Assembly (NCBI RefSeq): GCF_030651915.1
Contig: NZ_JAUSBV010000010.1
Span: 434,001 to 498,000, forward strand
Reading direction: 5' to 3'
DNA length: 64,000 bases
From: Parvibaculum sp.
Lineage (GTDB): Bacteria > Pseudomonadota > Alphaproteobacteria > Parvibaculales > Parvibaculaceae
Position numbers and translations under genes: made by a program
In this document: positions 31,904 through 49,481 of the stretch, in pieces
Layout of the letters: every line of letters starts with the position of its first letter
How positions within the stretch are numbered: the stretch's first letter is position 1
Notes under the pieces: generated by a model
What the model was told of the DNA's origin: nothing
What the model saw: only the letters and a program-made list of their open reading frames with translations
Databases searched by the model: none

Positions 31904-34900
31904 TCAGCTCGCATCTTTGCCAACTGCCCGTAGCCGTATAGCGACCCGCCGAACACCCTCTTCGGGAAATGCGACGGTCTGCCCCTCGCAGGTCGCGCCA
32001 TCCACCGTCATTTCGATCGCTCCGGTCTGAAGACGGTCCGGATTCTCGACGCGGATTGCAAGAGTGCCGTTGTCGCGCCGGATTTCCGCTTCAAACGATG
32101 CCCAATGCCGCGGTAAGCACGGATCGATGACGAGCCGGCCGTCGGATAGTTTCAGCCCGAGGATCGCCTCGACGCCCAGACGCCACGTCCATGCCGCGGC
32201 GCCGGTGTACCAACTCCAGCCGCCGCGACCGACATGAGGCGCGACACCGCCCACATCGGCTGCCAACACGTAGGGCTCGTCACGATACCGTTGAAGGTCG
32301 AGGGCGTTTCGCGTCCGGTTGATCGGGTTCAGAATCTCAAAGATGCGCCATGCGCGATCCCCCTCCCCGCGCGCCGCAAAGGCGAGCCCGAGCCAGGCCG
32401 CCGCATGGGAATATTGCCCGCCATTCTCCCGAACGCCCGGCGGATAGGCCTTGATGTACCCCGGATCGCGCGGCGTTGTGTCGAAGGGCGGCCAGAGCAG
32501 CCGGACCAGCTGGTCTTCTTCGCTTACCAAATCGCGCTCCGCGCTATTGAGAGCCTTATCGATGCGGTCCGGCGCAGCGGCACCGGAAAGTACCGCCCAG
32601 GATTGCGCGATGGAATCGATCCGGCATTCGTCATTGCTGTCCGAACCCCATGGCCGTCCATTGTCGTCGAGCGCCCGCATGTACCAATTGCCATCCCACC
32701 CCTCGTCTTCGACGGCGCGCGCCATTTCGCGCGCGCGATCGTCCCAGTAACTCACTAGATCGTCACGATCCATATGCCCGGCCAACCTGACAAAACCATT
32801 GATCGCGGCAATCGCGAACCAGGCAAGCCAGACGCTCTCGCCCCGCCCCTGAGAGCCGACGCGATCCATGCCGTCGTTCCAATCGCCTGAGCCGATCAAT
32901 GGCAAGCCGTGTGCGCCCTGCGTGACGCCGCGGTCCAGCGCACGCCGGCAATGCTCGAAGATCGTTCGCGTCTCGCCCGGCGTGTCGAAGCGCGCGTACC
33001 GGTCATGCTCCTCCGGCGTCAGCACCGGCGCGCGCAGGAAAGGCACTTCCTCGGTCAGGATGGAATGATCGCCGGTCGCCTCGACATAGTGACTCACAGC
33101 ATAAGGGAGCCACAGCAGATCGTCCGAGCAGCGTGTCCGTACACCCCGATCATGCGGCGGGTGCCACCAATGCAGCACATCGCCTTCCTCGAACTGACGT
33201 GCTGCGCAAGCGAGGACATGCGCGCGGGCGCGGGCGGGATCGGCATGAAGCAGCGCCAGCACGTCCTGAAGCTGATCGCGGAAGCCGAATGCACCGCCGG
33301 CCTGGTAGAAGCCCGCTCTGGCAAGAATACGTGAAGAAAGCGTCTGATATTGCAACCAGCAATTTATCATCAGATCGAAGGCTGGATCGGGCGTTTGTAC
33401 CGTCACGGCACCCAGCCGACGGTCCCACTGTTCTGTCAACGCCGCCAGGGCCCGATCGATCGAGGCCGGTTCCTGCCAACGGCGCGCAAGTTGCTCCGCA
33501 TGCGCCCTGTTATCTCCCTGACCGAGAATGAAGATCACCTCGACCGTTTCTCCACCCGCGATGTCGAGATGCGCCTGATAGGCCGCGCAGGGATCCGCTC
33601 CCGACCCTACCCGGTCACCGAGGTCCCACTGTCGAAGTGCCGCCGGATTCGCCAAGTCGCCCTCACGGCCCAGAAAATCCCGTCTGTCGGTGGTCAGGCT
33701 GTGTGGCGGATGACTGGACGTCAGGAATGCAACACGCTCGCCGAAGTCGGGGTTCCACGGGTTGCGTGCCAGAAGCGAATGACTGCCGCTGTCGTATTCG
33801 CAGACCACATGCGGCCGGGCCGTGCTGCGCAACGCGCCGAGTACCCATTCAGCGTAATATGTCGCGGTGACGCGCCGGGCGCGCGCAGCGGGATTGCTCA
33901 AGCGGAGCCGCATGATCTTGACGGGATCGTCCGTCGGCACGAAGACGAGCAGTTCCTGTTCCAGCCCATGGCTGTTCTGCCGCCAGAGCGTATAACCCGC
34001 GCCGTGACGGATCTGGCAGTCCGCTCCCTCGCCTGCCGGCATGGGTGTGGGCGACCAGACCCCGGCGCTTTCCTCATCACGCAAATAGAACACTTCTCCC
34101 GGCGGATCGCAGACGGGATCGTTGGCCCAGGGTGTCAGGCGGTTCTCGCCGCTGTTGACGGCCCAGGTAAACCCACCCCCGGAGTCTGTGACGAGCGTGC
34201 CGAATGCGTCGTTTGCAAGAACATTCGACCAGGGCGCCGGTGTGCCCTCGCCCGTTTCCGGCTGGATCACATATTCGCGTCCATCTGGCGTGAAACCGCC
34301 AATGCCGTTGTCGAACAGAAGATCGGCCGGGCGTGCCACTGGCGGAATTTCTTCCGTTGGAACCATATCACCGGAGCCACCGAAGAACGGAACGACCGGC
34401 CGCGGCCGCACAGCCTTCGTGAGTTGGCTCTCAAGACTTCCTTCCGACTCATCGAGGATGACATGGGCGACGCTCTCAAGCAGACGTATATCTTCTTCAG
34501 CCATATGATCAGCAAAGAGCAGATGGACGTCTTGATGGTGGCCGGTGGTTACGTGTCCCCTGGCAAATTCCCGCAACATTGCGGAGAGGCGCTCGCGCGA
34601 CTGGTCGATATATCCGGATGGTCCCGTGCGAAGCACAACGAGGTCGACATGAAAGCCGCGCCGGTACCACAAACAATGCGCAGCGGCCAGCAGCCGCAGG
34701 AGATCGGTCGTCTCGTCGTCGGCTGCCCGGAGCAAGAGGATGGGCAGATCGCCGGAAATCCCCAAACCCCAGAGCCTCGGCTGACCGTGCCGGTTTGCGG
34801 CGACCACCGCAGGACGTCCTCTCAATTCATGGTAGGGATAAAGGAGAAGCGAGGCGAGCTGCTGCAATTCGGGCAATCGCGGCGACTCGAGAGCAAGCCG

Positions 34901-37900
34901 CTGGGTCTCGTGGGCCACCCCAGCCGCAGCATCGGCGAGAGCCCAATCCAGCGAGGCGAGTGTTGCGTAGCGCTCGGCGAGTTCCAGAACGGACTCACGC
35001 GAGCCGGCGACGAATGTCAAAAATGCGACTTCACGTCTTTCACCGGGCTGCAACTCAACGCATGCCTGAAGCGCCATCGCGGGGTCGAGCGTCCAGCCCA
35101 CACTGCCTGAAAGCCCATCGACTATGCCTCGCGGACGTCGTGACGTCCCGTTCCGTCCGAGAAATGCCGCGCGATCCGTTTCAAATCCGATCAAATTCGG
35201 ATCGGCGTCGCTCGAAATAATGCGGTGAAGCATGACCGGCGGCTTTTCGCGAGGATGACGCGTCCGGCGCGTGAAAAGCAAACCATTAAGATGCGGTATG
35301 TGTTCGCTACCGACGAAGAGCTTGCTGAAAGCGGGATGGCGCTCGTCCTCGAGCGGCGGCGCCATAACGACCTCGCCGTAACTTGTGAATTCGAGCGTCC
35401 GCACCTCATCGCTTTCATTGACGATGGCGAGGCGCCGGATTTCAACATCGTCACCCGCCGCGACCCCGACTTCCATCCGCAATCCGATGCCCTGGTCCCG
35501 GCGGTGAAACTCGACCATGTGCGGATGAAAGACAGTCTGCGCTTCCTCCGGCCGAACGCCAGTGGGTTGTCGTCCGACGGACCAGATATCGCCACTGTCC
35601 ACATCGCGAACATAGACCCACAAGCCTTCCCGGTCGCTGGCGTCGGGCAGCCAGCGCGTGAGCGCCTGGCCGTGCCAAAGAAGTCTCCCGCCGCCGGCTT
35701 CCGATATCCAGCTCGCCAGGCGACCATTGGAAAGCATGTGTATTTGCGGAACCACCGGCATGACCGCCGGCTGCCACACATCGAGCACGGGAGCCGCCGA
35801 CCGGCGCGATGACGGCCGCGGGAGTTCTTCCTCCCGGCCCGGCTCCGCCGGTAGTTCCCTCGGAATGCGTTCATGCAACAAGAGTTCCATGACCCGCATT
35901 CGACGGTCTTCGCGAAATCTGCGGATATGTATGTCCTCGCAGAGTGCATTGCCCAAGGCGCTCAGGATCATACCCTGGTGATGTGCCATGTAAGCGCGGA
36001 CAGGCAGAAAGCGCTGTCCCGCCGGCACGCGCTCAGGCGTGAAGTCCGCCGCTTCAAACAGGCCGAACGCGCCCACAAGCCCGAGCCGCACCAGTTCGCG
36101 CAAGTTCGCTATTGCCGCGCCGGTATTTACCGCAAGTGCCAGTACTGTCGCATAGGGAGCCACGACGTGATCGTTTGCAAGCCCGCGGCGCAAGCCAAGC
36201 CCCGGCACGCCGAAAGCCCGATACTGGTACCGGTGGTCCGCATCGCGCGATGCATAGGCCGATTCCGATACGCCCCATGGAATGCCATACGTCTCACCAT
36301 ATTGCCGCTGAATCTCAACTGCCGCACGCTCACTTTGGCCGAGAAGCGTTCCAGGATCGCTCCGCAGCAGCAGCGGTGGCATGAGATATTCGAACATCGA
36401 TCCGTTCCATGACACCAGTGACATTCCGTGCTTGGTCTGCGTCAGCGGTCGCCCAAGAAAGAACCAGTGTTCGAGCGGCACATCGCCCTTCGCGATGGCA
36501 AAGAAGCTTGCCAGCCGCGCTTCCGTTGCCATGAGGTCGTAGTGATGGGCGTCGACGCGATCGGCGCTATGATTATATCCAATAAAAAAAAGCCGTAGCT
36601 CCTGGTCGAAAAGCGGCCGAAAATCCATTTCTTCCGCAAGTCGCTCCGATCGCATGGCAGCGTCCAGCAGGCTCTCGCGCAGTTCGTGTTGCGCTTGTGC
36701 GCCTCGCGCGAATGCCACGGTCAGTTCCGAAAACCATTGGCTCACCGCCTCGCTCTCTTCATGTAGCGTGGCCGTTGCTACTATTTCTGCGATCTTGGCA
36801 CGAGCATCGTCGGTTCCCGCCAGCGACATGGAAGGCGGCAGGCTTTCTTCGATGCGAGATGCGAATTCCTCGCAGCCAGCGGGGGGAGCGGCGATGAGAG
36901 TCAGCCATGGCGTGAACGCATCGATGTCGCGCTGCATGCCGACCAAATGGTGTCGCCCGCGCTCAAGCCAGATATTCATCTCTCTCAAAGCTTCAACGGA
37001 CGGCGCCTTTGGGGCTGCAACGAGATCGTCGACGACCTCCTCTATTTCGCGCCATGTGTGGCCGCTTATATTCATTAAGGCCGTTCGCCAGTCCTGCGGG
37101 TTTTCGCGGGCGTGCGCGATCTGGAGAGTGAGAGATTCGATCTTCGAACAGAGTTTTCCGCCGTCCGAATTCTTGAATTTCTTTCCTGCTTCCGAGAGAA
37201 GATCGAGCGTGTCGCCGAGCCCGTCCCAAAGCGCGACCGGAAACGCCGATCCCCTTGCGGCTTCCAGACACCCTTGCTTCAGTGCCAACAGGCAAACAGC
37301 CAGATTTCCACTATCTACCGTCGACACATAACGGGGCTCGAGCGGGGTCAGAAACCTGGTGTCGTACCAATTGAAAATATGTCCGTGACAGCGTTCGAGC
37401 CGGTCGAGTGTATCGAGAGCGTTCTGAATGCGCGTCGAGAAATCTATCGGACCGATATAACCAAGGTCGGCGGCCGTGAGCGTCGAGAGAAGCATCATGC
37501 CGATATTGGTTGGCGACGTGCGGTGCGCGATCTCAGCATGAGGTTCTTCCTGATAGTTGTCCGGCGGTAGCCAATTGTCCTCGGGCCCGACGAACGTCTC
37601 GAAATAGAACCAGGTTCGCCGTGCAACCCGCCGCAGGAAGATCCTCTCCGCCTCATCGATTCTTTCGACCGGCATGCGCCGCGGGCGACGGATCCAGATC
37701 GCTATCTCGGGCGCCACGAGCCAGAGCAGCAGCAATGGCGCGGCGGCCGGCAAAGCCGATGGGCTTGCCGTAGCAAGCAATATCAAGAGCATGACGGCGA
37801 AAACCGGTGTGCTCGCCATGTGCAGCCAGGTTTTGGCACGCGTGCCATTCGCAGCCAGATGCTCGGCCACATGGGCCGCCGAGGTCCACTCCAAGAGGCC

Positions 37901-40357
37901 GCGCCGCGAAACGGCGAGCCGCCAAAGCGTTCGAACAATGGCATCAAGGGCCGTTGCCGCATCGCTGACGAGAAACGCCAGAGCGAGAAACCAGCGCCCC
38001 GCGTGATCGGCGAGACGCCGCATCGCGCTCCGCACAGCGCCCCGCCGACGCCCCCCCGCAAGCCCGGTTACGAGATCCGCGAAAAGATAGGCGCCCGGAA
38101 CCGCGACTGTGAAGACCGTCCAGACCCACGGACTACCGGGCAACACCAGCCATCCAGCCGTTGCAAGCGCAAGAAGCGAAACCGGAACCAGACTTCGCCG
38201 CAAATTGTCGAATATCTTCCAGCGATCGAGGGCCGACAAACTGTTTGCAAACCGCTGACCATCGACGCCCGGCACTTGTCTCGCAAGCCACGGCAGCAGC
38301 TGCCAATCGCCGCGGACCCAGCGATGCCATCGGCGCATATACTCGACGTAGTCGGCAGGAAACCCTTCATACAGAACGATATCGGTCGCCAATGCCACTC
38401 GTCCGTGCGCGCCTTCGAAGAGGTCGTGACTTACAAGCGCATTCTCCGGTACCCGCATCTCGAGACTGCGGTGAAAAGGTTCGACCTCGTATATACCCTT
38501 GCCGACATAGATGCCGGCGCCGAACAAGTCCTGATAGACGTCCGAGACAGCACGCGAATATATGTCTATCGACGTATCGCCGGTGAAAAGGCGAGCAAAG
38601 AGCGATCGATTTCCTCGCTCAGGTGAAATTTCGACACGTGGCTGAATGACGGTGTAACCCGCTCGAACGCGTCCGGTCCCGGCGTCGAAGTCAGCCCGAT
38701 TCAGCGGGTGCGACAGCGCGCCGACAAGCCGGGCGACGGAGCCGGGCGGCAGCGTGGTATCCGCATCCACAGTGACAACGAAGCGGACGCGCCGCAGCGC
38801 CGCGCAGTCGCCCTCCTCGATCGAAAACCCGGACTCCCCCTCTCCCAGAACATACCGATTGAATTCCTCGAGCTTTCCCCGCTTCCGCTCCCAGCCCATC
38901 CAGCAGCCCTGGCGCGAATTGTAGCGACGTGGACGGTGAAGCACATGGAACGGTCCCGATTTCCCGTTTCCGTAGAGATCGTTGAGCCTTCGAATTCCGG
39001 CGATCAGCGCTTCTTCCACATCCGCATCGCCAGGCAGGTGCTCTTCGGCCGCGTCGACATGGTCGCTCAGCAACGCGAAACGCAACGACGGATCCGGATT
39101 GGCGAGGCGATGCATCTCGAGTTGTTCGATCAACCGCGCCACTTCCGCCGGGTTCGCAACCAGAACGGGCACAACCACAGCGGTCGCGCAGGCCGGAGGA
39201 ATGGCCTTCGCGAAGTCCATCTTGGGAAGAACACGCGGCGCCACCAACGACGTTACGGCCCAATGTACAAGCGTTACGCTCAGCACGGATGCCGGCAGCA
39301 GTGCAAACATGACGCCCAGCAACCAGTCCGCAAGCCCGGCGTCTACGGCCCAGAGGTAGAAAGCAGGCAGCACAAGCGCCGCAATCCCCGCCAGAACAAG
39401 CGCAGTCGCGTAAGCCCGTCCGGCATTCCGGCGGAGCCAGTTTCTGCCCGCGTCAATCGGTCCCCGCCGATATCCGATTGCCCGTTCCGTTTCAGGCCGG
39501 CCTTCACCGGTTAACCAATAACCAACATGATTGTGGGGCTGGCGTCGCACCTCGCCGCGTGCGCAGGTCAGCACATGCTCTGTCACCTCGGCTTCCGGCC
39601 GGCGCGAACCGAAAGCCAGATCTTCCACCGTTCTGCGATATGTATCCCGTGTTTCGAAGTCCATGTGCGTGTAGACGCCCGCGGGATCGCCGGCGAGTGC
39701 TGCTTCAACCAGACTGGTTTGTTCAAAAAACTCTTTCCACGGAAGCGACGCAATCACAGCCAGATTGGCGAGTGCGCGCGATACACATTCCGTATCCTCA
39801 AACTCGCCACAGTCATTGGCGTATCTGCTGGGATCGACGGGCGCTTCAAGTCCCGGGAGCAACCGTCCGAACGAAACGATCAGAACTTCCAGGCAAGCCA
39901 GACGAAGCATCGTCGGGAACGCCCACAGCTCGGCCGTCGTCAGTGCATCCCGTTCCTGATACGCATTCACGAACTGTTGGAGGGCCGCCAGCGAAAGCTG
40001 CAGATGCGACGCCTTCAGAAAACCGTGCGCAAGTACGAAAACACGCGGGTATCCCTCGTCGCCTGTATTCGTCAGGCTTGGCAGTCGATTGTAGAACTGC
40101 GATGGCAGATCCTTTTGTACCTGGACGATGGCGCGCCGTACCTGGTAGTCGTTGTCGAGCAACCATTCGGCGGCCTTCGTTGAGTCAGGGGGCGGATCGG
40201 CGCAGAGCCGCCGCACCTCGGCGAGCCACGCGACCAGCGAGCCCGCCTGTGCCCAGACCGCGAGTGGGGCTGGGGTTCTGCCCGATGTCACATGGCGCTG
40301 CCGCAACTCCGATGCCGCCATTTCGAGCGGGCGATGCTGGACCTCCATATCGGGCAC
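31904..40357 (-). CDS. ndvB: Giant cyclic beta-1,2-glucan synthase-like protein (NdvB/Cgs family, GT84-GH94)
   Basis: The protein has 2817 residues, close to Brucella Cgs and rhizobial NdvB. An N-terminal region is followed by membrane helices near 315-370, a glycosyltransferase core with VTVDADTTLPPG (D-x-D, about 530) and RRWHRWVRGDW (R-x-x-R-W, about 710), and more helices near 735-780 and 845-895. A glycoamylase-like domain follows (HWFFLGRPLTQTKHGMSLVSWNGSMFEY, about 1300), then two GT36/GH94 phosphorylase-like modules, the last with SGDWNDGMDR (catalytic Asp, about 2490). It would polymerise and cyclise glucan at the inner membrane and set its length. It starts 2 nt after a tandem Usp gene whose upstream region has an FNR-type box, so control by oxygen limitation is inferred. 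Confidence 0.9.
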   Translation of the reverse strand: MPDMEVQHRPLEMAASELRQRHVTSGRTPAPLAVWAQAGSLVAWLAEVRRLCADPPPDSTKAAEWLLDNDYQVRRAIVQVQKDLPSQFYNRLPSLTNTGDEGYPRVFVLAHGFLKASHLQLSLAALQQFVNAYQERDALTTAELWAFPTMLRLACLEVLIVSFGRLLPGLEAPVDPSRYANDCGEFEDTECVSRALANLAVIASLPWKEFFEQTSLVEAALAGDPAGVYTHMDFETRDTYRRTVEDLAFGSRRPEAEVTEHVLTCARGEVRRQPHNHVGYWLTGEGRPETERAIGYRRGPIDAGRNWLRRNAGRAYATALVLAGIAALVLPAFYLWAVDAGLADWLLGVMFALLPASVLSVTLVHWAVTSLVAPRVLPKMDFAKAIPPACATAVVVPVLVANPAEVARLIEQLEMHRLANPDPSLRFALLSDHVDAAEEHLPGDADVEEALIAGIRRLNDLYGNGKSGPFHVLHRPRRYNSRQGCWMGWERKRGKLEEFNRYVLGEGESGFSIEEGDCAALRRVRFVVTVDADTTLPPGSVARLVGALSHPLNRADFDAGTGRVRAGYTVIQPRVEISPERGNRSLFARLFTGDTSIDIYSRAVSDVYQDLFGAGIYVGKGIYEVEPFHRSLEMRVPENALVSHDLFEGAHGRVALATDIVLYEGFPADYVEYMRRWHRWVRGDWQLLPWLARQVPGVDGQRFANSLSALDRWKIFDNLRRSLVPVSLLALATAGWLVLPGSPWVWTVFTVAVPGAYLFADLVTGLAGGRRRGAVRSAMRRLADHAGRWFLALAFLVSDAATALDAIVRTLWRLAVSRRGLLEWTSAAHVAEHLAANGTRAKTWLHMASTPVFAVMLLILLATASPSALPAAAPLLLLWLVAPEIAIWIRRPRRMPVERIDEAERIFLRRVARRTWFYFETFVGPEDNWLPPDNYQEEPHAEIAHRTSPTNIGMMLLSTLTAADLGYIGPIDFSTRIQNALDTLDRLERCHGHIFNWYDTRFLTPLEPRYVSTVDSGNLAVCLLALKQGCLEAARGSAFPVALWDGLGDTLDLLSEAGKKFKNSDGGKLCSKIESLTLQIAHARENPQDWRTALMNISGHTWREIEEVVDDLVAAPKAPSVEALREMNIWLERGRHHLVGMQRDIDAFTPWLTLIAAPPAGCEEFASRIEESLPPSMSLAGTDDARAKIAEIVATATLHEESEAVSQWFSELTVAFARGAQAQHELRESLLDAAMRSERLAEEMDFRPLFDQELRLFFIGYNHSADRVDAHHYDLMATEARLASFFAIAKGDVPLEHWFFLGRPLTQTKHGMSLVSWNGSMFEYLMPPLLLRSDPGTLLGQSERAAVEIQRQYGETYGIPWGVSESAYASRDADHRYQYRAFGVPGLGLRRGLANDHVVAPYATVLALAVNTGAAIANLRELVRLGLVGAFGLFEAADFTPERVPAGQRFLPVRAYMAHHQGMILSALGNALCEDIHIRRFREDRRMRVMELLLHERIPRELPAEPGREEELPRPSSRRSAAPVLDVWQPAVMPVVPQIHMLSNGRLASWISEAGGGRLLWHGQALTRWLPDASDREGLWVYVRDVDSGDIWSVGRQPTGVRPEEAQTVFHPHMVEFHRRDQGIGLRMEVGVAAGDDVEIRRLAIVNESDEVRTLEFTSYGEVVMAPPLEDERHPAFSKLFVGSEHIPHLNGLLFTRRTRHPREKPPVMLHRIISSDADPNLIGFETDRAAFLGRNGTSRRPRGIVDGLSGSVGWTLDPAMALQACVELQPGERREVAFLTFVAGSRESVLELAERYATLASLDWALADAAAGVAHETQRLALESPRLPELQQLASLLLYPYHELRGRPAVVAANRHGQPRLWGLGISGDLPILLLRAADDETTDLLRLLAAAHCLWYRRGFHVDLVVLRTGPSGYIDQSRERLSAMLREFARGHVTTGHHQDVHLLFADHMAEEDIRLLESVAHVILDESEGSLESQLTKAVRPRPVVPFFGGSGDMVPTEEIPPVARPADLLFDNGIGGFTPDGREYVIQPETGEGTPAPWSNVLANDAFGTLVTDSGGGFTWAVNSGENRLTPWANDPVCDPPGEVFYLRDEESAGVWSPTPMPAGEGADCQIRHGAGYTLWRQNSHGLEQELLVFVPTDDPVKIMRLRLSNPAARARRVTATYYAEWVLGALRSTARPHVVCEYDSGSHSLLARNPWNPDFGERVAFLTSSHPPHSLTTDRRDFLGREGDLANPAALRQWDLGDRVGSGADPCAAYQAHLDIAGGETVEVIFILGQGDNRAHAEQLARRWQEPASIDRALAALTEQWDRRLGAVTVQTPDPAFDLMINCWLQYQTLSSRILARAGFYQAGGAFGFRDQLQDVLALLHADPARARAHVLACAARQFEEGDVLHWWHPPHDRGVRTRCSDDLLWLPYAVSHYVEATGDHSILTEEVPFLRAPVLTPEEHDRYARFDTPGETRTIFEHCRRALDRGVTQGAHGLPLIGSGDWNDGMDRVGSQGRGESVWLAWFAIAAINGFVRLAGHMDRDDLVSYWDDRAREMARAVEDEGWDGNWYMRALDDNGRPWGSDSNDECRIDSIAQSWAVLSGAAAPDRIDKALNSAERDLVSEEDQLVRLLWPPFDTTPRDPGYIKAYPPGVRENGGQYSHAAAWLGLAFAARGEGDRAWRIFEILNPINRTRNALDLQRYRDEPYVLAADVGGVAPHVGRGGWSWYTGAAAWTWRLGVEAILGLKLSDGRLVIDPCLPRHWASFEAEIRRDNGTLAIRVENPDRLQTGAIEMTVDGATCEGQTVAFPEEGVRRVAIRLRAVGKDAS

Positions 40358-40359
40358 GG

Positions 40360-41382
40360 TCAGCGTTCGGTGTGATGAGATAGCCGCATGTCGACGTCGC
40401 GAAGACCCACGCTACGTGTCGTCGATGCGCGTGTCTCGCGTTGGACAATCAAAAGCGGTACAGCGATATGGGTTATGAGATGGGCCGTCACGCGGCCATA
40501 AGGAACGTCGGCGCGGGCCGCCTGACCGTGGGCCGAGAGGACCACCAAGTCGGCATTGTTGGCAATCAGATGAGACAGATTGCTTCGAACGTCGCCGCGC
40601 CGGATGATGACCCTTGTTGAAATACCACTCGCGGCAAGGCGCATTCGCAACCGGTCGAGGTAGTCTCGCGCGACGCGCTCGTTCCGTGCAGCCAGCCGCT
40701 CCCGCAGGTCGATGTCCTCCTTGTCGAGCGGTCCAGTTTCCGTCAATTCCGGCACCGGGACGACGTGCGCCAGGACAAGTTCGGCGCCATGTGCCTTCGC
40801 GATGCGGACAGCCAACGGAAGAACGCTTTCCGCCCGGCAAGAACCATCGACGGGTACAAGCAATCGCCGATAATGAATATCGTCCGAACGGACCGAGGAA
40901 GGCACGAGAAGGACAGATCCGGTGCCTCTCTCCATGACCCGTCGGGCCGTGCTGCCCAAGCTCCATTCCATCGATCCGCCCTCCCCATGCGTACCAAGCA
41001 CGGCGAGATCCGATCTGTGCTCATGCGTCCAGAGAGCAATTTTCTCCGCGGCGGCGCCCTCGATAACCTCGACATCGACATGGGCACCGTCGCGCGCGCA
41101 AGCCTGCGCAAGACGCACGATACGCCCTTGGGCTTCACGCTGGCGAATCTTCCGCTCGACCGGATCGGACGGACCGTTGGGCCCAACCTCCAGCACGCGC
41201 AGCAGCGTAAGCGGCGCATCCAGCGCTTTTGCGACAGCAAGCCCGTGCGATAAAATCTTCCGTGTGAATTCAGACGTATCCACGCAAGCCACAACACGCG
41301 CAAAAGAAGTGCTAGCGCCGGATGCCGCCGTAACGACATGTTCAGGTGCACTTCGTTCCGGACCGACGGAAGATGCAGACAT
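40360..41382 (-). CDS. Tandem-domain universal stress protein
   Basis: The protein has 340 residues with two Usp domains. The first (about 26-165) has an intact ATP-loop GTHGEGGSMEWSLGSTARRVM; the second (about 170-315) has SAHGQAARADVPYGRVTAHLI, with Arg-Val instead of Ser-Thr after the last Gly, so it may not bind ATP. The start has AAAGGAGG upstream. An exact FNR/FixK-type box lies about 92 nt before the ATG. It is the first gene of a two-gene operon with the glucan synthase. Confidence 0.9.
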   Translation of the reverse strand: MSASSVGPERSAPEHVVTAASGASTSFARVVACVDTSEFTRKILSHGLAVAKALDAPLTLLRVLEVGPNGPSDPVERKIRQREAQGRIVRLAQACARDGAHVDVEVIEGAAAEKIALWTHEHRSDLAVLGTHGEGGSMEWSLGSTARRVMERGTGSVLLVPSSVRSDDIHYRRLLVPVDGSCRAESVLPLAVRIAKAHGAELVLAHVVPVPELTETGPLDKEDIDLRERLAARNERVARDYLDRLRMRLAASGISTRVIIRRGDVRSNLSHLIANNADLVVLSAHGQAARADVPYGRVTAHLITHIAVPLLIVQRETRASTTRSVGLRDVDMRLSHHTER

Positions 41383-41473: not shown

Positions 41474-41487
41474 TTGATACGGATCAA
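41474..41487. promoter_or_regulatory. FNR/FixK-type box TTGAT-ACGG-ATCAA
   Basis: This is an exact match to the TTGAT-N4-ATCAA consensus, 92 nt upstream of the tandem usp ATG and just past the 3' end of the lipoprotein gene. It probably activates usp-ndvB. Confidence 0.8.
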
Positions 41488-42151: not shown

Positions 42152-42910
42152 CTACGCCTTGCCTGTCGCCATTGCGCGAAGGGCGGCGGCATTCTCGACG
42201 ACGATCGCGCGGGCGGTCGGCGCAGCGACGACACCGGCACGCTTCAGGTCGCTGAGCGCCCGACAGACCGTCTCGATTGTGAGGCCGAGATAGTCCGCAA
42301 TATCCTGCCTGCCCATCGGGAGGTCCAGACGATCGCCGTCGCATCCTTCACACCCCTGCCGTTTCAGCATCAGGAGGAGAAAGGATGCAACGCGTTCTCT
42401 GACGGTCTGCCGTCCAAGCATCAGAATATGGCTCTGAGCAGACGAAAGATTTCGGTGGAGCAGCGCTGTCAGATGCTCCCGGAGGCTCGATGAAACCTGC
42501 TCCAGACGCTCGATTTGCTTCCGGGGGTAACGGACGAGGACTACGTCGCTCACCGCTTCTGCCGTCAACGCATACTCATCGGTCCACGCGAAACCGAAAT
42601 AGTCATTCGGGAGGCAAAAATCCGCAATTTGCCGACGGCCATCGGAAAACAGCTTGCACAGCCGCACGGCGCCACTCACCACTCGATAGGAAAACGTTGC
42701 GCAATCGCCGTCGTTGAAAATTGTCTCGTTACGATCAAATTTCAGGACCGCGCCGACTCCCTGGAGCGAGGAGATATCGCCGCGAGCCGCGCCATCGTCA
42801 TCATGACCGAGCCATTCAAGATGTTGTGACGTATCTCCGCGATGCCCGCTTGTGCGCGGCGAAATGTAGGATGGATAAGCGAGATGGGCAGCGTTGACCG
42901 TGACGGACAT
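42152..42910 (-). CDS. fixK: Crp/Fnr-family regulator, FixK type
   Basis: The protein has 252 residues with AAAAGGGG seven nt before the ATG. A cyclic-nucleotide-type beta roll (about 50-150) is followed by a dimer helix and a winged HTH with LPMGRQDIADYLGLTIETVCRALSDLKRAGV. The recognition helix E-T-V-C-R keeps the Glu and Arg that read TTGAT/ATCAA in FNR and FixK, with Cys in the Ser slot. The N-terminus lacks the Cys cluster of oxygen-sensing FNR, so it is FixK-like and should depend on FixLJ. The genes for FixL and FixJ lie just upstream on the same strand, and six cognate-looking boxes lie nearby. Confidence 0.85.
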   Translation of the reverse strand: MSVTVNAAHLAYPSYISPRTSGHRGDTSQHLEWLGHDDDGAARGDISSLQGVGAVLKFDRNETIFNDGDCATFSYRVVSGAVRLCKLFSDGRRQIADFCLPNDYFGFAWTDEYALTAEAVSDVVLVRYPRKQIERLEQVSSSLREHLTALLHRNLSSAQSHILMLGRQTVRERVASFLLLMLKRQGCEGCDGDRLDLPMGRQDIADYLGLTIETVCRALSDLKRAGVVAAPTARAIVVENAAALRAMATGKA

Positions 42911-43032
42911 TCGGAACCCCTTTTACATTACACATAAACCCAAAGGCCCCGTGCTTCTGCAATCGAGTAACCATGTCACGACTTTTCTTTACGAAAAATT
43001 GGGGAATCTACGTAGAGAGGCAATCGATCGGC

Positions 43033-43431
43033 TCAGTCGGCCGCATGATCCATAAGGACCTGCCTTATTGTTTGCGCCAGATCCTCGCTGTTCACCGGCT
43101 TCTCGAGAAGAGCCCGTGCACCGGCGCGCATTACTCGCTCCCGCAATTGTGCATCGGCGCGCCCAGTGAGAACGACAGTAGGCAAGGAAATTTCCGACTC
43201 CTTCAAATGCTCCAGTAGTTCGGCACCGCTCATGCCAGGCATATGCAAGTCGAGCAACAGACAGCAGGAAAGACCGTCGCGCTCGCGCGTCCGATCGTCA
43301 TCAAGAAAATGGTTTGCGGATGGATAATCGCGAACGGTCAGACCGTACGCCTCGAAAAGGGCGCGCGTGGAATCCCGCACCGCGTCGTCGTCGTCCACGA
43401 TATAGATCATTTCTATGCTGAGACTCTTCAC
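43033..43431 (-). CDS. Receiver-only response regulator in the fix cluster
   Basis: The product has 132 residues from GTG 43431 behind a G-rich stretch; an ATG at 43410 would give 125. There is a single receiver with phosphoacceptor D61 (CCLLLDLHMPGMSG), acidic DDDD near residue 13, Thr in VVLTGR, and Lys in LLEKPV. No output domain follows. Two Cys directly precede the phosphoacceptor strand. It may be a phosphate sink or a FixT-like modulator of FixL, but this is inference from the location between fixJ and fixK. Confidence 0.85.
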   Translation of the reverse strand: MKSLSIEMIYIVDDDDAVRDSTRALFEAYGLTVRDYPSANHFLDDDRTRERDGLSCCLLLDLHMPGMSGAELLEHLKESEISLPTVVLTGRADAQLRERVMRAGARALLEKPVNSEDLAQTIRQVLMDHAAD

Positions 43432-43506: not shown

Positions 43507-44133
43507 CTAGGTTTCATCTGCCGAAGAGACACCGGCCTCCAGCGCCATGCGTACGAGGTCGGACAGGCTCCGCGCCTGCATTTTTTCCATCAGGTTTGCG
43601 CGATGCACCTCGACCGTTCTCCGCGAAATGTCCAGTTCATGAGCTATGACCTTGTTGGGCTGTCCGGCAACAATGCGCTCCAGCACCTGTCTTTCGCGTC
43701 GCGTGAGACCGGCGACCCGGTCCTTTGCGGCCTGCGAGAAATCCGTATGGCCCTTCAGCTTCCGGCCGGACTCGAGAGCACGTTCGACGCTGTCAAGCAA
43801 CAACCGGTCGTCAAAGGGCTTCTCGATAAAATCGATTGCACCGGCTTTCATCGCGCGCACAGCAAGCGGTACATCGCCATGACCGGTTATGACGATAACC
43901 GGCAACTCGATATGGCGGCGGACCAGCTCTTCCTGAAGCCCAAGCCCGTCCATATCCGGCATTCGGATATCGGCGACCAGGCAACCCGGCCGGGGCGGCT
44001 TGTAGGCGTCGAGAAATGCGGCGGCCGACCCGAAATCATCGACGAGAAACGCGGCAGCTTCCAACAACGCGCGAAGAGACTCGCGCACGGCATCATCGTC
44101 GTCGACGACAAAAACTGTTTCCCCCGGTTTCAT
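43507..44133 (-). CDS. fixJ: FixJ response regulator (LuxR/NarL-type output)
   Basis: The protein has 208 residues: receiver with D55 (CLVADIRMPDMDG), then a LuxR-type HTH (LTRRERQVLERIVAGQPNKVIAHELDISRRTVEVHRANLMEKM). Length and motif order match FixJ. It starts 9 nt after fixL. In the known cascade phospho-FixJ switches on fixK at low oxygen; here a fixK-type gene follows two genes downstream. Confidence 0.93.
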   Translation of the reverse strand: MKPGETVFVVDDDDAVRESLRALLEAAAFLVDDFGSAAAFLDAYKPPRPGCLVADIRMPDMDGLGLQEELVRRHIELPVIVITGHGDVPLAVRAMKAGAIDFIEKPFDDRLLLDSVERALESGRKLKGHTDFSQAAKDRVAGLTRRERQVLERIVAGQPNKVIAHELDISRRTVEVHRANLMEKMQARSLSDLVRMALEAGVSSADET

Positions 44134-44142: not shown

Positions 44143-45276
44143 CTATGCATCGATGACAGGCAGCCGAAAGCAGAAAGTCGTACCGCCGTTCTCGTTCGCT
44201 GTCGCCGACAGGAGGCCGCCGTGACCGCTGACGATGGACTGGCAGATCGACAGGCCTACGCCCATTCCTTTCTCCTTCGTCGTGACAAAGGGCTGGAATA
44301 GCCGGCTTGCAACCTCATCCGGCAAACCCGGTCCTGTGTCGGAAAAGGATGCATAGGCATAGCCGTTCTCCTCAAAGCCGGTTTCTATCGTCAGCTCACG
44401 AATACTTACCTCCTGCAATGCTTCGACAGCGTTCCGCACGAGATTCAGGACTACCTGTTGTATCTGTATGCGGTCCATGAGCACCGGCGGGATATTCTGG
44501 TCAAATTTCAGGACAGCTTTGATGTTTGCATCCGATGCTCCGACCAAAGCCAGAGAGATCGCCTCCTCGATCGTCTTGTTCAGATCCTCGTGCGATTGAC
44601 GAGCATCACGCTTTTCGACGAAATCACGCAGACGTCTGATGATTTCGCCCGCTCGCGCGGTCTGGCCGGCGGCCTTATCCATCATGCCCTGCGCCCGCAC
44701 GATGGCCGGATCGTCGAACGCGGCAACGGTTCGCTGCGCTGCACGTAGATAATTCATGATGGCCGTGAGCGGCTGATTGAGCTCATGGGCGAGCGCCGAC
44801 GTCATCTGCCCCATCTCGTTCAATCGCGAAACATGCGCCAGTTCGGCCTGTACTTCCTGCAGGCGGCTCGCGACAACCTGCCGTTCCGTCGTGTCATGAA
44901 TGATGCCAATAAAGATCTGCTCATTCCCGAGCCAGCCCTCACCGACCGAAAGATACATCGGGAAGGTCGAGCCGTCCTTGTTCTGACCCAACACCTCGCG
45001 GCCAATGCCGATGATCTTGCGTTCGCTGGTCGTCCGATATGCCTCGATATAATTGTCGTGTTGCTCACGGTATGGCGACGGCATTAACATATTGATGTTG
45101 CGGCCGAGCACCTCCTCAGGCGCATAGCCCAAAAGACGCTCACAGGCCTTGTTGTAGAGACGCACATTGCCGACGGCATCAATGACGATGATACCGTCCA
45201 CGGCCGTGTTGATGAGTACCTGGAAGAGCGCGGCGTTTTCCGCATCCTTGAACGGCGCATCCATGCCGGTTTTCAT
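44143..45276 (-). CDS. fixL: FixL-type heme PAS histidine kinase (soluble)
   Basis: The protein has 377 residues without a membrane segment. The PAS domain (about 15-130) carries the FixL heme pocket: proximal H73 in SPYREQHDNYIEAYRTT, and R93 in IIGIGREVLGQ, the oxygen-sensing arginine. The kinase core has H164 in SALAHELNQPLTAIMNYLRA, N-box NLVRNAVEAL and G-boxes DTGPGLPDEV and GMGVGLSICQSIV. Oxygen on the heme should inhibit the kinase. It is cytoplasmic, unlike the membrane-bound Sinorhizobium FixL. Confidence 0.94.
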   Translation of the reverse strand: MKTGMDAPFKDAENAALFQVLINTAVDGIIVIDAVGNVRLYNKACERLLGYAPEEVLGRNINMLMPSPYREQHDNYIEAYRTTSERKIIGIGREVLGQNKDGSTFPMYLSVGEGWLGNEQIFIGIIHDTTERQVVASRLQEVQAELAHVSRLNEMGQMTSALAHELNQPLTAIMNYLRAAQRTVAAFDDPAIVRAQGMMDKAAGQTARAGEIIRRLRDFVEKRDARQSHEDLNKTIEEAISLALVGASDANIKAVLKFDQNIPPVLMDRIQIQQVVLNLVRNAVEALQEVSIRELTIETGFEENGYAYASFSDTGPGLPDEVASRLFQPFVTTKEKGMGVGLSICQSIVSGHGGLLSATANENGGTTFCFRLPVIDA

Positions 45277-45440: not shown

Positions 45441-45454
45441 TTGACCTCGATCAA
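45441..45454. promoter_or_regulatory. FNR/FixK-type box TTGAC-CTCG-ATCAA
   Basis: There is one mismatch to the TTGAT-N4-ATCAA consensus. It lies 64 nt before the usp ATG at 45518 and also faces the divergent fixL start (165 nt away). It is likely a FixK site for usp-chaB, possibly feedback on fixL. Confidence 0.72.
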
Positions 45455-45517: not shown

Positions 45518-46399
45518 ATGATCAAGTCAATTCTCGTGCCTGTTGCAGGCCAGAAAAACGATGTGGCAACGCTGCGTACGGCTCGGGAACTGGCGGTGCA
45601 TTTCGACGCTCATCTCGATTGCCTCTATGTGCGGCCCGATCCCGCACAACTCGTGACGGCCGGCGCGGCTTTTCCGATCGGCGCTGGCATGATCGCCGGC
45701 GGCGTTGTCGATGCGCTGCGGCAAGAGCAAGAGGAAAAAGCCAAAGCTGCGCGGGCCCGTTTCGACGATTTCTGCGGACTTCACGATATCTCGATCTGCG
45801 ACACTCCGCCGGGTCCAGGCCGCATTTCGGCCGCGTGGCACGAGGCGACGGGCCCCGCGGCCGACCTTCTCACAGTATGGGCGCGAACGCGGGATGCCTT
45901 GGTTCTGGGCCCGCGATCGCCGGATGGCCGTCTCGACCTGTTTTCGACCGGCTCCATTCTTCTCGGTTGCGGTCGCCCCGTGTTTCTTCCCGGCCCGGCC
46001 GCGCAGATGGAACCGGAAAGATCGATCACGGGCACGATCGCCGTCGCCTGGAAAGAGACGCCAGAGGCCGCAAGAGCCGTTACCGCCGCCATGCCGCTTC
46101 TCATGAAAGCGAAGAAGATCGTCGTGATTTCAGCCGTCGAGGCCGGTGATACAGCACCTGGTGACCCCGGAAAGCTCGTACGACAGCTGGGCTGGCATGG
46201 CTTCAATGTGGAGGGCCGGACGATCACGCCGGCCGGCCGATCGCTGCCTGAGGCCGTGATGCTCGACGCGGTAGCGGCTGGCGCGGATTTCATGATCATG
46301 GGCTGCTATGGCCGTAGCCGCCTCAGGGAATTCGTCTTCGGCGGTTTCACGCGCGAGGTTCTCAACGGCGCGCCACTGCCGATTTTCACTTTCCATTAG
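45518..46399 (+). CDS. Universal stress protein (UspA family)
   Basis: I start at ATG 45518 (MIKSILVPVAGQKND, 293 aa). Two alpha/beta Usp-like halves are visible; the second ends MGCYGRSRLREFVFGGFTREVLNGAPLPIFTFH, the typical ATP-type G-x2-G-x9-G loop. It is a cytoplasmic stress protein, commonly induced at low oxygen in this class. It has an FNR-type box upstream and chaB 37 nt downstream. Confidence 0.88.
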   Translation: MIKSILVPVAGQKNDVATLRTARELAVHFDAHLDCLYVRPDPAQLVTAGAAFPIGAGMIAGGVVDALRQEQEEKAKAARARFDDFCGLHDISICDTPPGPGRISAAWHEATGPAADLLTVWARTRDALVLGPRSPDGRLDLFSTGSILLGCGRPVFLPGPAAQMEPERSITGTIAVAWKETPEAARAVTAAMPLLMKAKKIVVISAVEAGDTAPGDPGKLVRQLGWHGFNVEGRTITPAGRSLPEAVMLDAVAAGADFMIMGCYGRSRLREFVFGGFTREVLNGAPLPIFTFH

Positions 46400-46436: not shown

Positions 46437-46655
46437 ATGCCTTATCGCACCAATGCCGATCTCCCTTCCACCATCCGCCAACATCTTCCGGCGCACGCCC
46501 AGGATATTTTCCGTAGCGCCTACAACAGCGCTTGGGAGCACTACAAATGCGAGCGCGACCGCCGCGAGGAGATCGCCCACCGTATTGCCTGGGCTGCGGT
46601 CAAGAAGAAATACCGGAAAGTGGAAGACCGCTGGCATGTAAAAGACAAGGGCTGA
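46437..46655 (+). CDS. chaB: ChaB-family small protein
   Basis: The protein has 72 residues starting MPYRTNADLPSTIRQHLPAHAQDIFRSAYNSAWEHY, with AGGGAGG upstream. The PSTIRQHLP and AQDIFRSAYNSAWEHY motifs define the ChaB fold. E. coli ChaB was named as a regulator of the ChaA cation antiporter, but no chaA is here, and the family's true role is unsettled. It likely shares the usp transcript, and it converges on hsp20 with 6 nt between stops. Confidence 0.87.
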   Translation: MPYRTNADLPSTIRQHLPAHAQDIFRSAYNSAWEHYKCERDRREEIAHRIAWAAVKKKYRKVEDRWHVKDKG

Positions 46656-46661
46656 CGGCGC

Positions 46662-47141
46662 TCAAGCTGATTTTACCTCGATCTTCTTGCACGCCTTCTT
46701 GACGTCGGCCGGCTTTGGCACCTCGACCTTCAGCACGCCCTTCGAGAACGACGCCTTGATCGCGTCGGAATCGGCCCGAAATGGCATCCGGACGGTGCGC
46801 TCGAAAGATCCCCATGAGCGTTCCTTCAGGTGGTAGTCCTTCTTCTTTTCCTCGTGCTCCTCCTTCTTCTCGCCTTTTATCGAGAGCAGGTCGCCAGTCA
46901 ACGTCACCTCGACGTCCTTCTCGTCCATGCCCGGGAGTTCGGCAGTCATCGTCACGCCGTCATCGGATTCCGTCACGTCAAGATGCGGCGAAAGTGTTCC
47001 GAATATCGACGGATCCGGGTGCCAGCCGAATCCACGTGAAAAATCGTCGAAGAGTCTTTCCACATCGCCGCGCAGCCGCCGAAAGATATCCATTTCGCCA
47101 TTGCCCGTTTCGCGTTCGCGCATAAATCGCTGCGGTGTCAT
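46662..47141 (-). CDS. Small heat-shock protein (Hsp20/alpha-crystallin)
   Basis: Start chosen at ATG 47139-47141 (MTPQRFMRERE, 159 aa), nine nt after GGAG; the ATG six bases earlier is too close to that site. The alpha-crystallin domain runs from PHLDVTESDDGVTMTAELPGMDEKDVEVTLTGDLLSIKGEKKE to FSKGVLKVEVPKP, with the GVL signature. It is a chaperone that holds unfolding proteins. An exact FNR-type box 88-101 nt upstream suggests low-oxygen rather than purely heat control. Confidence 0.92.
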   Translation of the reverse strand: MTPQRFMRERETGNGEMDIFRRLRGDVERLFDDFSRGFGWHPDPSIFGTLSPHLDVTESDDGVTMTAELPGMDEKDVEVTLTGDLLSIKGEKKEEHEEKKKDYHLKERSWGSFERTVRMPFRADSDAIKASFSKGVLKVEVPKPADVKKACKKIEVKSA

Positions 47142-47228: not shown

Positions 47229-47242
47229 TTGATCGCAATCAA
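47229..47242. promoter_or_regulatory. FNR/FixK-type box TTGAT-CGCA-ATCAA
   Basis: This is an exact consensus match, 88 nt upstream of the hsp20 ATG and 91 nt upstream of the DUF2267 ATG. It sits in a divergent promoter region that holds a second box (47266-47279). Confidence 0.8.
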
Positions 47243-47265
47243 CGAGCGAGAAAATCTACCTCGCG

Positions 47266-47279
47266 TTGCTCTGGATCAA
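47266..47279. promoter_or_regulatory. FNR/FixK-type box TTGCT-CTGG-ATCAA
   Basis: One mismatch in the left half (TTGCT). It is 54 nt before the DUF2267 ATG at 47333, so it probably serves that gene, while the exact box 23 nt away serves hsp20. Confidence 0.6.
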
Positions 47280-47332
47280 GGCACAGCCGCCGGTCGACCT
47301 TATGCTGGGGTTTTCTGCCGAGGATGCCCGTA

Positions 47333-47776
47333 ATGACCACAACCGGACTCGACACATTCGATACGACCGTTCACGAGACCAATGCTTGGCTCAAGGACAT
47401 TATGGAGCGCCTGAAAAGCGACAATCGGCGCCTTGCCTACTCTGCGCTGCGCTGCACACTTCATGCGTTGCGCGATCGCCTGACGCCCGAAAGCGCCGTC
47501 CATCTCGGCGCGCAATTGCCGATGCTCGTACGCGGATTTTATTATGAAGGCTGGCGCCCGTCCGGTACGCCGACAAATGAAAAGCATGCGGACAACTTTA
47601 TCGACCGTGTCGACGACGCGCTCCCGGCAGGGCTCGACATTGACCCTGAAGCAGCAGTAATCGCAGTGCTTGCCGTCATGGCCGATCGGCTCGATGCCGG
47701 TGAGATCGCCAAGATTGCTCGCCAGTTGCCGCGCGACATGCACCAACTCTGGCCGGAAGCGTTCCGTGGTGCATAG
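47333..47776 (+). CDS. DUF2267 protein
   Basis: The protein has 147 residues (MTTTGLDTFDTTVHETNAWLKDIMERL), with GAGG upstream; a start nine bases earlier (MPVMTTT) is also possible. It is all-helical, with two repeats: ALRCTLHALRDRLTPESAVHLGAQLPMLVRGFYYEGW and AAVIAVLAVMADRLDAGEIAKIARQLPRDMHQLWP. This is the DUF2267 pattern. The function is unknown; such genes often accompany Usp, CBS and Hsp20 genes in oxygen-limitation clusters. It has an FNR-type box upstream. Confidence 0.82.
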   Translation: MTTTGLDTFDTTVHETNAWLKDIMERLKSDNRRLAYSALRCTLHALRDRLTPESAVHLGAQLPMLVRGFYYEGWRPSGTPTNEKHADNFIDRVDDALPAGLDIDPEAAVIAVLAVMADRLDAGEIAKIARQLPRDMHQLWPEAFRGA

Positions 47777-47794
47777 GCAGCGAAACGCAGACGG

Positions 47795-47814
47795 GGCCGC
47801 CCGCAAAGGCGGCC
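47795..47814. terminator. GC hairpin between convergent DUF2267 and CBS genes
   Basis: Stem GGCCGCC/GGCGGCC, loop CGCAAA, located in the 49-nt gap between two stop codons. There is no T-run, so it would be a weak intrinsic terminator at best. Confidence 0.4.
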
Positions 47815-47825
47815 TCGCATGCATT

Positions 47826-48245
47826 TCATGCGTGATGGGTTGCAACCGCCGAGGCAATCTCGCCCGAAAGACTTTTCGGGGTCTGCCCCGAGAAATCGCC
47901 GAGGCTGAGCATGCCGACCATCCGCTTGTTTTCATCGATAACCGGCAGGCGGCGGATTTTCTTGCTTTCCATGAGACGAGCCGCCGCCTTGACGTCGTCA
48001 GTATCGCGGCACCATACGACATTCTTGGTCATGACTTTGCGGGCCGTCAGCTTCTTCATGTCGCCGCCATTGGCCGCCGCGCGGCAGGTAATGTCGCGAT
48101 CCGTCACCATCCCGATCAGACGGTCGTTCTCGCCCACGGGGACCGCACCGATATCCTCGTCCCGCATTTTCTTCGCGATCTTGGACAGGGTCGTATCCGG
48201 CCCCACCCACGTCACGTTGCTGTGCATGATCTCCTTGACCTTCAT
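47826..48245 (-). CDS. Tandem CBS-domain protein
   Basis: Start ATG 48243-48245 (MKVKEIMHSNVTWVGPDTTLSKIAKKM, 139 aa); an upstream in-frame Met is rejected because it lies beyond the regulatory region. There are two CBS motifs: IGAVPVGENDRLIGMVTDRDITCR and IRRLPVIDENKRMVGMLSLGDFS. Stand-alone CBS pairs bind adenosine nucleotides and sense energy state. An FNR-type box lies 91 nt upstream. Confidence 0.9.
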   Translation of the reverse strand: MKVKEIMHSNVTWVGPDTTLSKIAKKMRDEDIGAVPVGENDRLIGMVTDRDITCRAAANGGDMKKLTARKVMTKNVVWCRDTDDVKAAARLMESKKIRRLPVIDENKRMVGMLSLGDFSGQTPKSLSGEIASAVATHHA

Positions 48246-48335
48246 TGTCCTATCTCCCTGATGGCGATGTGCGGTAGGTCCGCCACACCAAGACATTGCT
48301 GTTGTCAATCAAAGCCCGGCTGAGCTGGAGCGGCA

Positions 48336-48349
48336 TTGATCCACATCAC
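48336..48349. promoter_or_regulatory. FNR/FixK-type box TTGAT-CCAC-ATCAC
   Basis: One mismatch (final A to C). It is 91 nt upstream of the CBS ATG and overlaps the stop codon of the DUF3775 gene. Confidence 0.62.
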
Positions 48350-48750
48350 AATCGATTCTTTTCAAAGTCCTCGCAGCTCTCACCGAAGGCCGAAAGCCCC
48401 TCTTCCAGGTAGTCGCCAAGTAGCGGCAGGCCAATCAGGTATTCGGCCGTACGCTCGTTGTGCGCGGCGCGCGCCTCGTCAAGCGCGTCGTTCCACTCCA
48501 CGAATTCATACGTGCCGCGGCCGAGCCATGAGAGCGCGACAAGTTCGACCTGCTCGTCCTCGTCGAGTCCGCGAATGAACTCGATAAGTTCCTGGCGCGT
48601 CGGATCGTCTGCAAAATCTTCCAGAATGTCGGCGCTGCCATCATCGGTGGGGTTGGAACCCGGCGACGGGTCGCTGACCTCTTCCTTCGCGTCGAACACG
48701 CGTGCTTTCACGATGACGTGGCAGACCTTTTCGGGATTGATGGTGAGCAT
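48346..48750 (-). CDS. DUF3775 protein
   Basis: Start ATG 48748-48750 (MLTINPEKVCHVIVKARVFDAKEE, 134 aa), with GGAGA upstream; a GTG two codons earlier is less likely. It is strongly acidic and contains TRQELIEFIRGLDEDEQVELVALSWLGRGTYEFVEWNDALDEARAAHNERTAEYLIGLPLLGDYLEEGLSAFG, the DUF3775 pattern of alphaproteobacteria. No function is known. It is followed by the CBS gene on the same strand. An FNR-type box 80 nt upstream is shared with hpf. Confidence 0.82.
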   Translation of the reverse strand: MLTINPEKVCHVIVKARVFDAKEEVSDPSPGSNPTDDGSADILEDFADDPTRQELIEFIRGLDEDEQVELVALSWLGRGTYEFVEWNDALDEARAAHNERTAEYLIGLPLLGDYLEEGLSAFGESCEDFEKNRL

Positions 48751-48829
48751 CGCCACTTCTCCGTATCACCCGCCAATGGACTCCGACTTCAGCGGTCAAA
48801 AACCATGCGCCGGAAAGCCACTTGGCTCT

Positions 48830-48843
48830 TTGACCAGGATCAA
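48830..48843. promoter_or_regulatory. FNR/FixK-type box TTGAC-CAGG-ATCAA
   Basis: One mismatch. It is 65 nt before the hpf ATG and 79 nt before the divergent DUF3775 ATG, so it can serve either or both. Confidence 0.7.
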
Positions 48844-48908
48844 TGCCCAAACGACCGGCCAAGTGTCTAAAAACGATCAGGCTCCGATTAACGATGGAGG
48901 GATGTCCC

Positions 48909-49481
48909 ATGCAACGGCCGATTTCGATCATCTTCCGCAATATGGACCCTTCGCCCGCTGTCGAGGATCGAATTCGTGAGCACGCAGCGAAATTGGAGCA
49001 TTTGTTTCATCGAATTATTAGCTGTCAGGTTACCGTGGACGTCTCAGGGGATCGCCATCACAAGGGAAAACTCTACCGCGTAGGCGTCATCGTCCGAATC
49101 CCGACCGGCGAGATTTCTGTGAGAGATCCGGGTCCGAAGAACCATGCTCATGAGGACATATATGTCGCCGTACGCGATGCTTTCGATGCCATTGCAAGGC
49201 GACTTGAAGATCGTGCCCGCCGCATGCGCGGCGACGTGAAGGCGCATGAAACATCACCTCATGGAACAGTGACGAAGATTCTACCTGCCAAAGGGTATGG
49301 CTTTATTCAGACCAGCGAGGGCGAAGAAATCTATTTTCATCGGAACAGTGTGACAGGCGGAGCCTTCGATATGTTGAAAATAGGCAGCGAGGTCAGGTTG
49401 TCGATTGCTGAAGGCGAAAGCGAACACGGCGCACAGGCGAGCAGTGTCGTTCCGATCGGCAAGCACCACCTTTTGGACTAG
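48909..49481 (+). CDS. Ribosome hibernation factor (HPF/RaiA) fused to a cold-shock domain
   Basis: I start at ATG 48909 (MQRPISIIFRNMDPSPAVEDRI, 190 aa) behind TGGAGGG; an earlier in-frame start at 48843 lies inside the FNR-type box. Residues 1-110 are the S30AE/HPF fold that blocks the ribosome's decoding site. Residues about 115-185 are a cold-shock domain (GTVTKILPAKGYGFIQTSEGEEIYFHRNSV, with RNP-1-like GYGFIQ and RNP-2-like IYFHRN). This fusion could link ribosome dormancy to RNA binding. It ends 4 nt into the convergent membrane-protein gene. Confidence 0.88.
   Translation: MQRPISIIFRNMDPSPAVEDRIREHAAKLEHLFHRIISCQVTVDVSGDRHHKGKLYRVGVIVRIPTGEISVRDPGPKNHAHEDIYVAVRDAFDAIARRLEDRARRMRGDVKAHETSPHGTVTKILPAKGYGFIQTSEGEEIYFHRNSVTGGAFDMLKIGSEVRLSIAEGESEHGAQASSVVPIGKHHLLD

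Follow-up and report, generated by a model that had tools for sequence, protein, structure and literature searches.

A putative local FixLJ-FixK low-oxygen regulon with dormancy-type targets in a Parvibaculum species

Regulatory genes of the island

The window analyzed here is a stretch of 64,000 nucleotides from the genome of a Parvibaculum sp. (NZ_JAUSBV010000010.1, positions 434,001 to 498,000), and the coordinates below are counted from its first base. It contains an island in which genes of the FixLJ-FixK type are surrounded by genes for stress and dormancy proteins. The regulators are all encoded on the reverse strand, beginning with a short FixL (44143..45276) that combines one heme-PAS domain with a histidine kinase (Pfam PAS, HisKA and HATPase_c; phospho-acceptor His164). 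His73 and Arg93, on which the initial annotation had based its assignment, do align with the heme residues of solved FixL (2cmn; E 9e-38 for the PAS part), and we place the protein in the heme-PAS type as a putative heme binder. Against the NCBIfam model of full-length rhizobial FixL it scores 424 bits over positions 126-482, the cut-off of 850 bits being hard to reach for a protein that lacks the additional N-terminal stretch of rhizobial FixL. Its predicted partner FixJ (43507..44133) consists of a receiver and a LuxR-type helix-turn-helix domain (Pfam), and passes the NCBIfam FixJ equivalog cut-off (274.5 bits versus 255). Between fixJ and fixK lies a gene that had been overlooked, encoding a receiver-only response regulator (43033..43431; Pfam Response_reg), which is found at the same place in most related clusters and could act in the relay as a brake or as a sink for phosphate. 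The order fixL-fixJ-rec-fixK and the common direction are conserved in most relatives.

The last gene of this series encodes a CRP/FNR regulator of the FixK type (42152..42910; Pfam), whose nearest named relatives are from Parvibaculum. Its closest solved chain is FixK2 of B. japonicum (4i2o, E 2e-56, profile A1), and its best NCBIfam family is the Caulobacter FixK equivalog (185 bits, with a cut-off of 300 for a model tuned to Caulobacter). The recognition helix reads E213-T-V-C216-R217, and Cys residues occur only at positions 70, 85, 99, 187, 190 and 216, so that the expected Glu and Arg (Glu213, Arg217) are indeed kept and the N-terminal Cys cluster, which in FNR supplies the four Fe-S ligands, is absent as had been proposed. 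Unlike FixK2, the protein carries a Gly at the position that we take to be that of the redox Cys (C183), and a Cys in place of the recognition-helix Ser. This Cys216 replaces the FixK/FNR Ser in most FixK proteins of the Parvibaculum type; it is possibly a redox switch at the DNA contact that answers oxidants. Upstream of fixK, at a distance of about 100 nt, the palindrome CTACGTAG (43008..43015) is a candidate FixJ site that might control fixK. Its TACGTA core recurs before fixK at -104 and -110 in two related clusters (L091 and L104, respectively, the latter from P. indicum DSM 25305); no common FixJ site was seen ahead of fixK in most relatives, and apart from this island only 2 of 13 related clusters have TACGTA there.

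Five proteins of the genome pass the HTH_Crp_2 cut-off, and the recognition helices of two of them besides FixK were read. One of these two CRP/FNR proteins (L246, G000 C8:1154431) has clustered Cys residues in its N-terminal part, but is probably not a binder of FNR boxes because its helix reads QVHVSR. The other is encoded in a nitrate-reductase and molybdenum-cofactor cluster (L051, G000 C8:286000-303000), which also contains two strict boxes.

Putative target genes and their boxes

The functional families given for the genes around fixLJ-fixK were all recovered with Pfam. On the reverse strand downstream of fixK, box TTGATCCGTATCAA (41474..41487, reverse strand, an exact match) lies 98 nt before the gene of a double-domain universal stress protein (40360..41382, reverse strand; Pfam Usp, 1e-41). 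This usp gene is followed by a giant NdvB-type cyclic glucan synthase of 2817 residues (31904..40357, reverse strand; Pfam GH94, glucoamylase and GT2), and the same usp-ndvB order is found in L091, with 86% identity and an identical box at equal distance. On the other side of the regulators, box TTGACCTCGATCAA (45441..45454, forward strand) is located 70 nt before a second usp gene (45518..46399, forward strand; Pfam Usp) and 172 nt before the divergent fixL, and could serve both. ChaB (46437..46655, forward strand; Pfam ChaB, 4e-24) is the second gene behind this usp and has no box of its own. The next box, TTGATCGCAATCAA (47229..47242), is again an exact match and sits between the divergent genes of Hsp20 (46662..47141, reverse strand; Pfam HSP20) and a DUF2267 protein (47333..47776, forward strand; Pfam, 1e-33), 94 and 97 nt away, respectively. 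It is accompanied by TTGCTCTGGATCAA (47266..47279, forward strand), which has one mismatch and lies 60 nt before the DUF2267 gene. The DUF2267 protein has a functionally uncharacterized solved relative, 2ysk.

A double-CBS protein (47826..48245, reverse strand; Pfam), which matches the Rv2626c structures 1xkf and 1y5h (E 9e-20), is preceded at 97 nt by box GTGATGTGGATCAA (48336..48349, reverse strand, one mismatch). Box TTGACCAGGATCAA (48830..48843) separates a DUF3775 gene (48346..48750, reverse strand; Pfam, 4e-30), at 86 nt, from a gene at 72 nt that encodes a ribosome hibernation factor fused to a cold-shock domain (HPF-CSD; 48909..49481, forward strand; Pfam S30AE and CSD), and the latter protein matches the solved HPF 9t0z over nearly its full length. 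DUF3775 is predicted to be helical (mean pLDDT 82, a fair model), and a comparison of this model with solved structures gave no clear match; we therefore propose no function from the fold, nor is newness of the fold implied.

Beyond these genes lie an unannotated gene of a small membrane protein of about 96 residues (49478..49768, reverse strand), which shows 56% identity (tblastn) to the leader gene of related clusters, and a seventh site, ATGAGCTCGATCAA (49843..49856, reverse strand), at about -82 of this gene and with two mismatches to the consensus. Both had escaped the initial annotation. Sites of the form ATGAC...ATCAA are found at the corresponding position in five relatives, 78-82 nt before the gene of a membrane protein of 88-95 residues; the protein of a relative has no Pfam match. 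The gene order in these five relatives is small membrane protein, DUF3775, CBS in one of them, and then fixL-fixJ-rec-fixK. The box thus heads the fix operon, and the fix genes are therefore predicted to be part of their own regulon there. In the window, a DUF2229 (CoA-enzyme-activase-like) gene (49705-51147) is divergent from the small membrane protein gene, and its annotated 5' part is overlapped by the site at 49843.

Box frequency and position

A pattern scan recovered the six boxes reported for this island (41474, 45441, 47229, 47266, 48336 and 48830) at the positions given, all of them intergenic; as described, two are full TTGAT-N4-ATCAA matches and four carry one mismatch. The boxes at 45441 and 48830 are also perfect under the usual degenerate FNR/FixK form, TTGAY-N4-RTCAA. 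A spacing of 50-110 nt had been claimed; measured from their centres, the boxes are 60-98 nt away from the start codons, except for the 131 nt that separate the box at 47266 from hsp20, slightly outside this range. The genome (3,498,796 bases) contains four exact copies of the motif, two of them in the island, and none of the reversed-pattern control. The pattern TTGAYNNNNRTCAA occurs 10 times (2 for the reversed control), of which 4 are in the island, and the motif with at most one mismatch 82 times (5 for the reversed control), of which 6 fall within the 7.37 kb of the island. At the genome rate about 0.17 such sites would be expected in 7.4 kb, giving a Poisson P of approximately 3e-8 that is to be taken as strong rather than exact, because the interval was set after seeing the sites.

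We fetched the sequence around 45 other sites from among the 82 in the genome with at most one mismatch. Most of them (38) lie inside genes and only seven are intergenic, at least two of these being in the nitrate-reductase cluster, as compared with six out of six for the boxes of the island (Fisher P 1e-4). As far as these sites go, the initial proposal is not refuted, the condition named for this being an equal frequency of boxes in random intergenic DNA of the genome. No good -10 element at the spacing expected for class II promoters was found for most genes: hexamers with as few as two mismatches precede only usp, DUF2267, CBS and hpf, the others being at background. The mismatches of the Parvibaculum sites are in the promoter-distal half-site, a bias which is a trend only in the wide set of sites (28 versus 15, P 0.07).

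Conservation of the boxes in relatives

Phylogenetic footprinting supports the boxes before usp, usp-ndvB, hsp20, CBS, HPF, DUF2267 and DUF3775. A first set comprised 80 loci around FixK relatives in Alphaproteobacteria (1.44 Mb), which contain 175 strict sites, versus one for the reversed control. A box precedes 27 of 41 usp-type genes, all three Hsp20 genes and five of eight CBS genes in these loci, as compared with 12.3% of other genes. All five orthologues of usp (E < 1e-50) have one, at -70 to -148. Individual orthologues also have boxes at -89 (Hsp20, in G007) and -82 (CBS, in G017); no box was found within 400 nt of the HPF orthologue in G006. The second set consisted of loci picked by DUF2267 alone, with boxes sought within 220 nt. 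DUF2267 orthologues in other bacterial families are preceded by a box in 9 of 20 cases, against the same 12.3% of other genes (P 3e-4). The same partner genes are found side by side in these loci, and boxes lie before DUF3775 (3/3, P 0.002), Hsp20 (3/4) and HPF-CSD (3/5), counts that are not all independent because some genomes share one family.

We also compared 27 Parvibaculum genomes, 14 with a close FixK and 13 without. DUF3775 occurs in nine genomes of the first group but in no genome of the second (P 6e-4), the usp orthologue (E < 1e-50) in five versus none and HPF-CSD (E < 1e-40) in three versus none, P values of this kind being weakened by shared ancestry and incomplete genomes. Strict sites number 2.9 per Mb in genomes with FixK and 1.2 per Mb in those without. 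One Parvibaculum MAG (G023) has two FixK-type loci (L056 and L064), of which one carries usp-ndvB and the other DUF3775.

Proposed regulation and alternative explanations

In these protein families it is established that oxygen inhibits FixL, FixJ activates fixK, and FixK activates transcription from boxes of the kind described here. Upon a drop in oxygen, then, the ligand would leave the FixL heme and the kinase would phosphorylate FixJ, which would switch on fixK. FixK in turn would act at the TTGAY-N4-RTCAA sites, which are placed for activation, and would raise expression of usp-ndvB, usp-chaB, hsp20, DUF2267, CBS, DUF3775, hpf-csd and the small membrane protein gene. The products would guard an idle cell by hibernating its ribosomes, by acting as chaperones and stress proteins, by sensing adenylates and through envelope glucan, and we infer that the targets serve the survival of non-growing, oxygen-starved cells. 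Oxygen sensing, the phosphorelay, the occupancy of the sites by FixK and induction at low oxygen are all predictions from gene and site content. Altogether, we consider that the island probably represents a local FixLJ-FixK low-oxygen regulon with dormancy targets in this Parvibaculum species (probability about 0.83). Weighing against it are the nar-cluster regulator beside two strict sites, the HPF orthologue of G006 that has no nearby box, the box before only 9 of 20 DUF2267 orthologues, and the want of a good class II -10 element for most genes. The suggestion that its uncharacterized members may act in hypoxic survival is supported for DUF2267 and DUF3775 by the boxes before their orthologues, and both are predicted to be recurrent members of this type of regulon; for ChaB it draws on the position behind usp only.

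The most probable of the alternatives, albeit an unlikely one, is that the boxes are real but mainly worked by another FNR-type protein that answers nitrate or nitric oxide rather than FixLJ. The candidate would be the DNR-like regulator of the nitrate-reductase cluster (C8:294005), whose helix PENLSR keeps the Glu and the Ser-Arg and could share the motif. The motifs of FNR, FixK and DNR are nearly the same (PMC2908626). Strict sites are found at its own gene and at moaA/nnrS genes, and genomes that lack a close FixK still carry a TTG-N8-CAA box at a usp paralogue. Yet the sites crowd around fixLJ-fixK rather than nar, DUF3775 and the usp orthologue are present only alongside FixK, and the fix operon is itself headed by a box in the five relatives mentioned above.

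Nearly as probable, and thus also unlikely, is a real regulon whose FixK obeys a signal other than FixLJ. The scarcity of the FixJ-like TACGTA before fixK among related clusters would fit such an arrangement, as would a recognition-helix Cys that might answer oxidants, but the adjacency and common direction of fixL-fixJ-rec-fixK in most relatives argue for the relay. Chance matches in AT-richer intergenic DNA, which the slightly higher AT content of the island relative to the window average might suggest, are by far the least probable explanation: the counts over the genome, the reversed controls, the preference for intergenic positions and the conservation all oppose it, and refute it for the box set as a whole. 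Single sites, such as the one at 47266, could still be chance matches.

Comparison with known low-oxygen regulons

The preferred reading, a FixLJ-FixK regulon, is less new than had first been implied. That FixK controls Hsp20 and CBS proteins is known from relatives of Bradyrhizobium: FixL, FixJ, Hsp20 and CBS have been listed in a core FixK regulon, and UspA belongs to the core FNR regulon (PMC2908626). Usp, CBS and Hsp20 also increase in B. diazoefficiens under microoxic conditions (PMC6515984). The FixLJ-FixK2 system of Bradyrhizobium and the FixK system of Rhodopseudomonas thus share with the Parvibaculum island the heme-PAS kinase, FixJ, a FixK without Fe-S cluster and the same box, as well as Hsp20, CBS and Usp as targets (PMC2908626, PMC6515984). 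Unlike in these systems, the targets found in the island are dormancy genes clustered around fixLJ-fixK, and they add DUF2267, DUF3775, HPF-CSD, NdvB and the small membrane protein to the set; no strict sites were found by respiratory genes of this genome except in the nar cluster.

In content the island also resembles the DosR regulon of M. tuberculosis, in which a heme kinase and a LuxR-type regulator control alpha-crystallin (Hsp20), many Usp proteins and a CBS protein; the CBS protein of the island, as noted above, matches Rv2626c. DosR binds its targets directly, at another motif, whereas a CRP/FNR protein is inserted in the Parvibaculum relay; the likeness is one of content, and we do not claim common descent. 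In the available parts of a study on Burkholderia cenocepacia, the low-oxygen-activated (lxa) locus is described as a cluster in which genes for Usp and alpha-crystallin increase in expression when oxygen is low, and for which a regulator of the FixK/Anr type has been suggested. It is already likened to the DosR regulon there; this locus belongs to another class of bacteria, and in those parts a FixLJ pair is not placed inside it (PMC6127331).

What is new is the organism, the clustering of a target set made up entirely of dormancy genes, and the membership of DUF2267, DUF3775, the small membrane protein and HPF-CSD. Our literature search returned nothing that ties FixK to DUF2267, DUF3775 or hibernation promoting factor and nothing that joins Parvibaculum with FixK, while the matches for DUF3775 and DUF2267 concerned unrelated subjects by title and abstract. 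Outside Bradyrhizobium, Nitrobacter and Rhodopseudomonas, FixK has been described as having no common target set and an unknown role (PMC2908626), and the island gives one such FixK a coherent role. DUF2267, DUF3775 and HPF-CSD become tied to FixK/FNR-type control by evidence from several bacterial families and are therefore each directly testable, the two DUF families gaining as a candidate job the survival of oxygen shortage. More tentatively, and at somewhat less than even odds, we suggest that Alphaproteobacteria outside the rhizobia may possess a movable dormancy module for oxygen shortage with DosR-like content (fixLJ-rec-fixK, Usp, Hsp20, CBS, HPF-CSD, DUF2267, DUF3775 and the small membrane protein), in which DUF3775 and DUF2267 would be dedicated to hypoxic survival and the Cys of the FixK helix may have a redox role. 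Among the 48 recognition helices matched in the 80 FixK-relative loci, the corresponding residue is Ser in 39, Cys in eight and Tyr in one.
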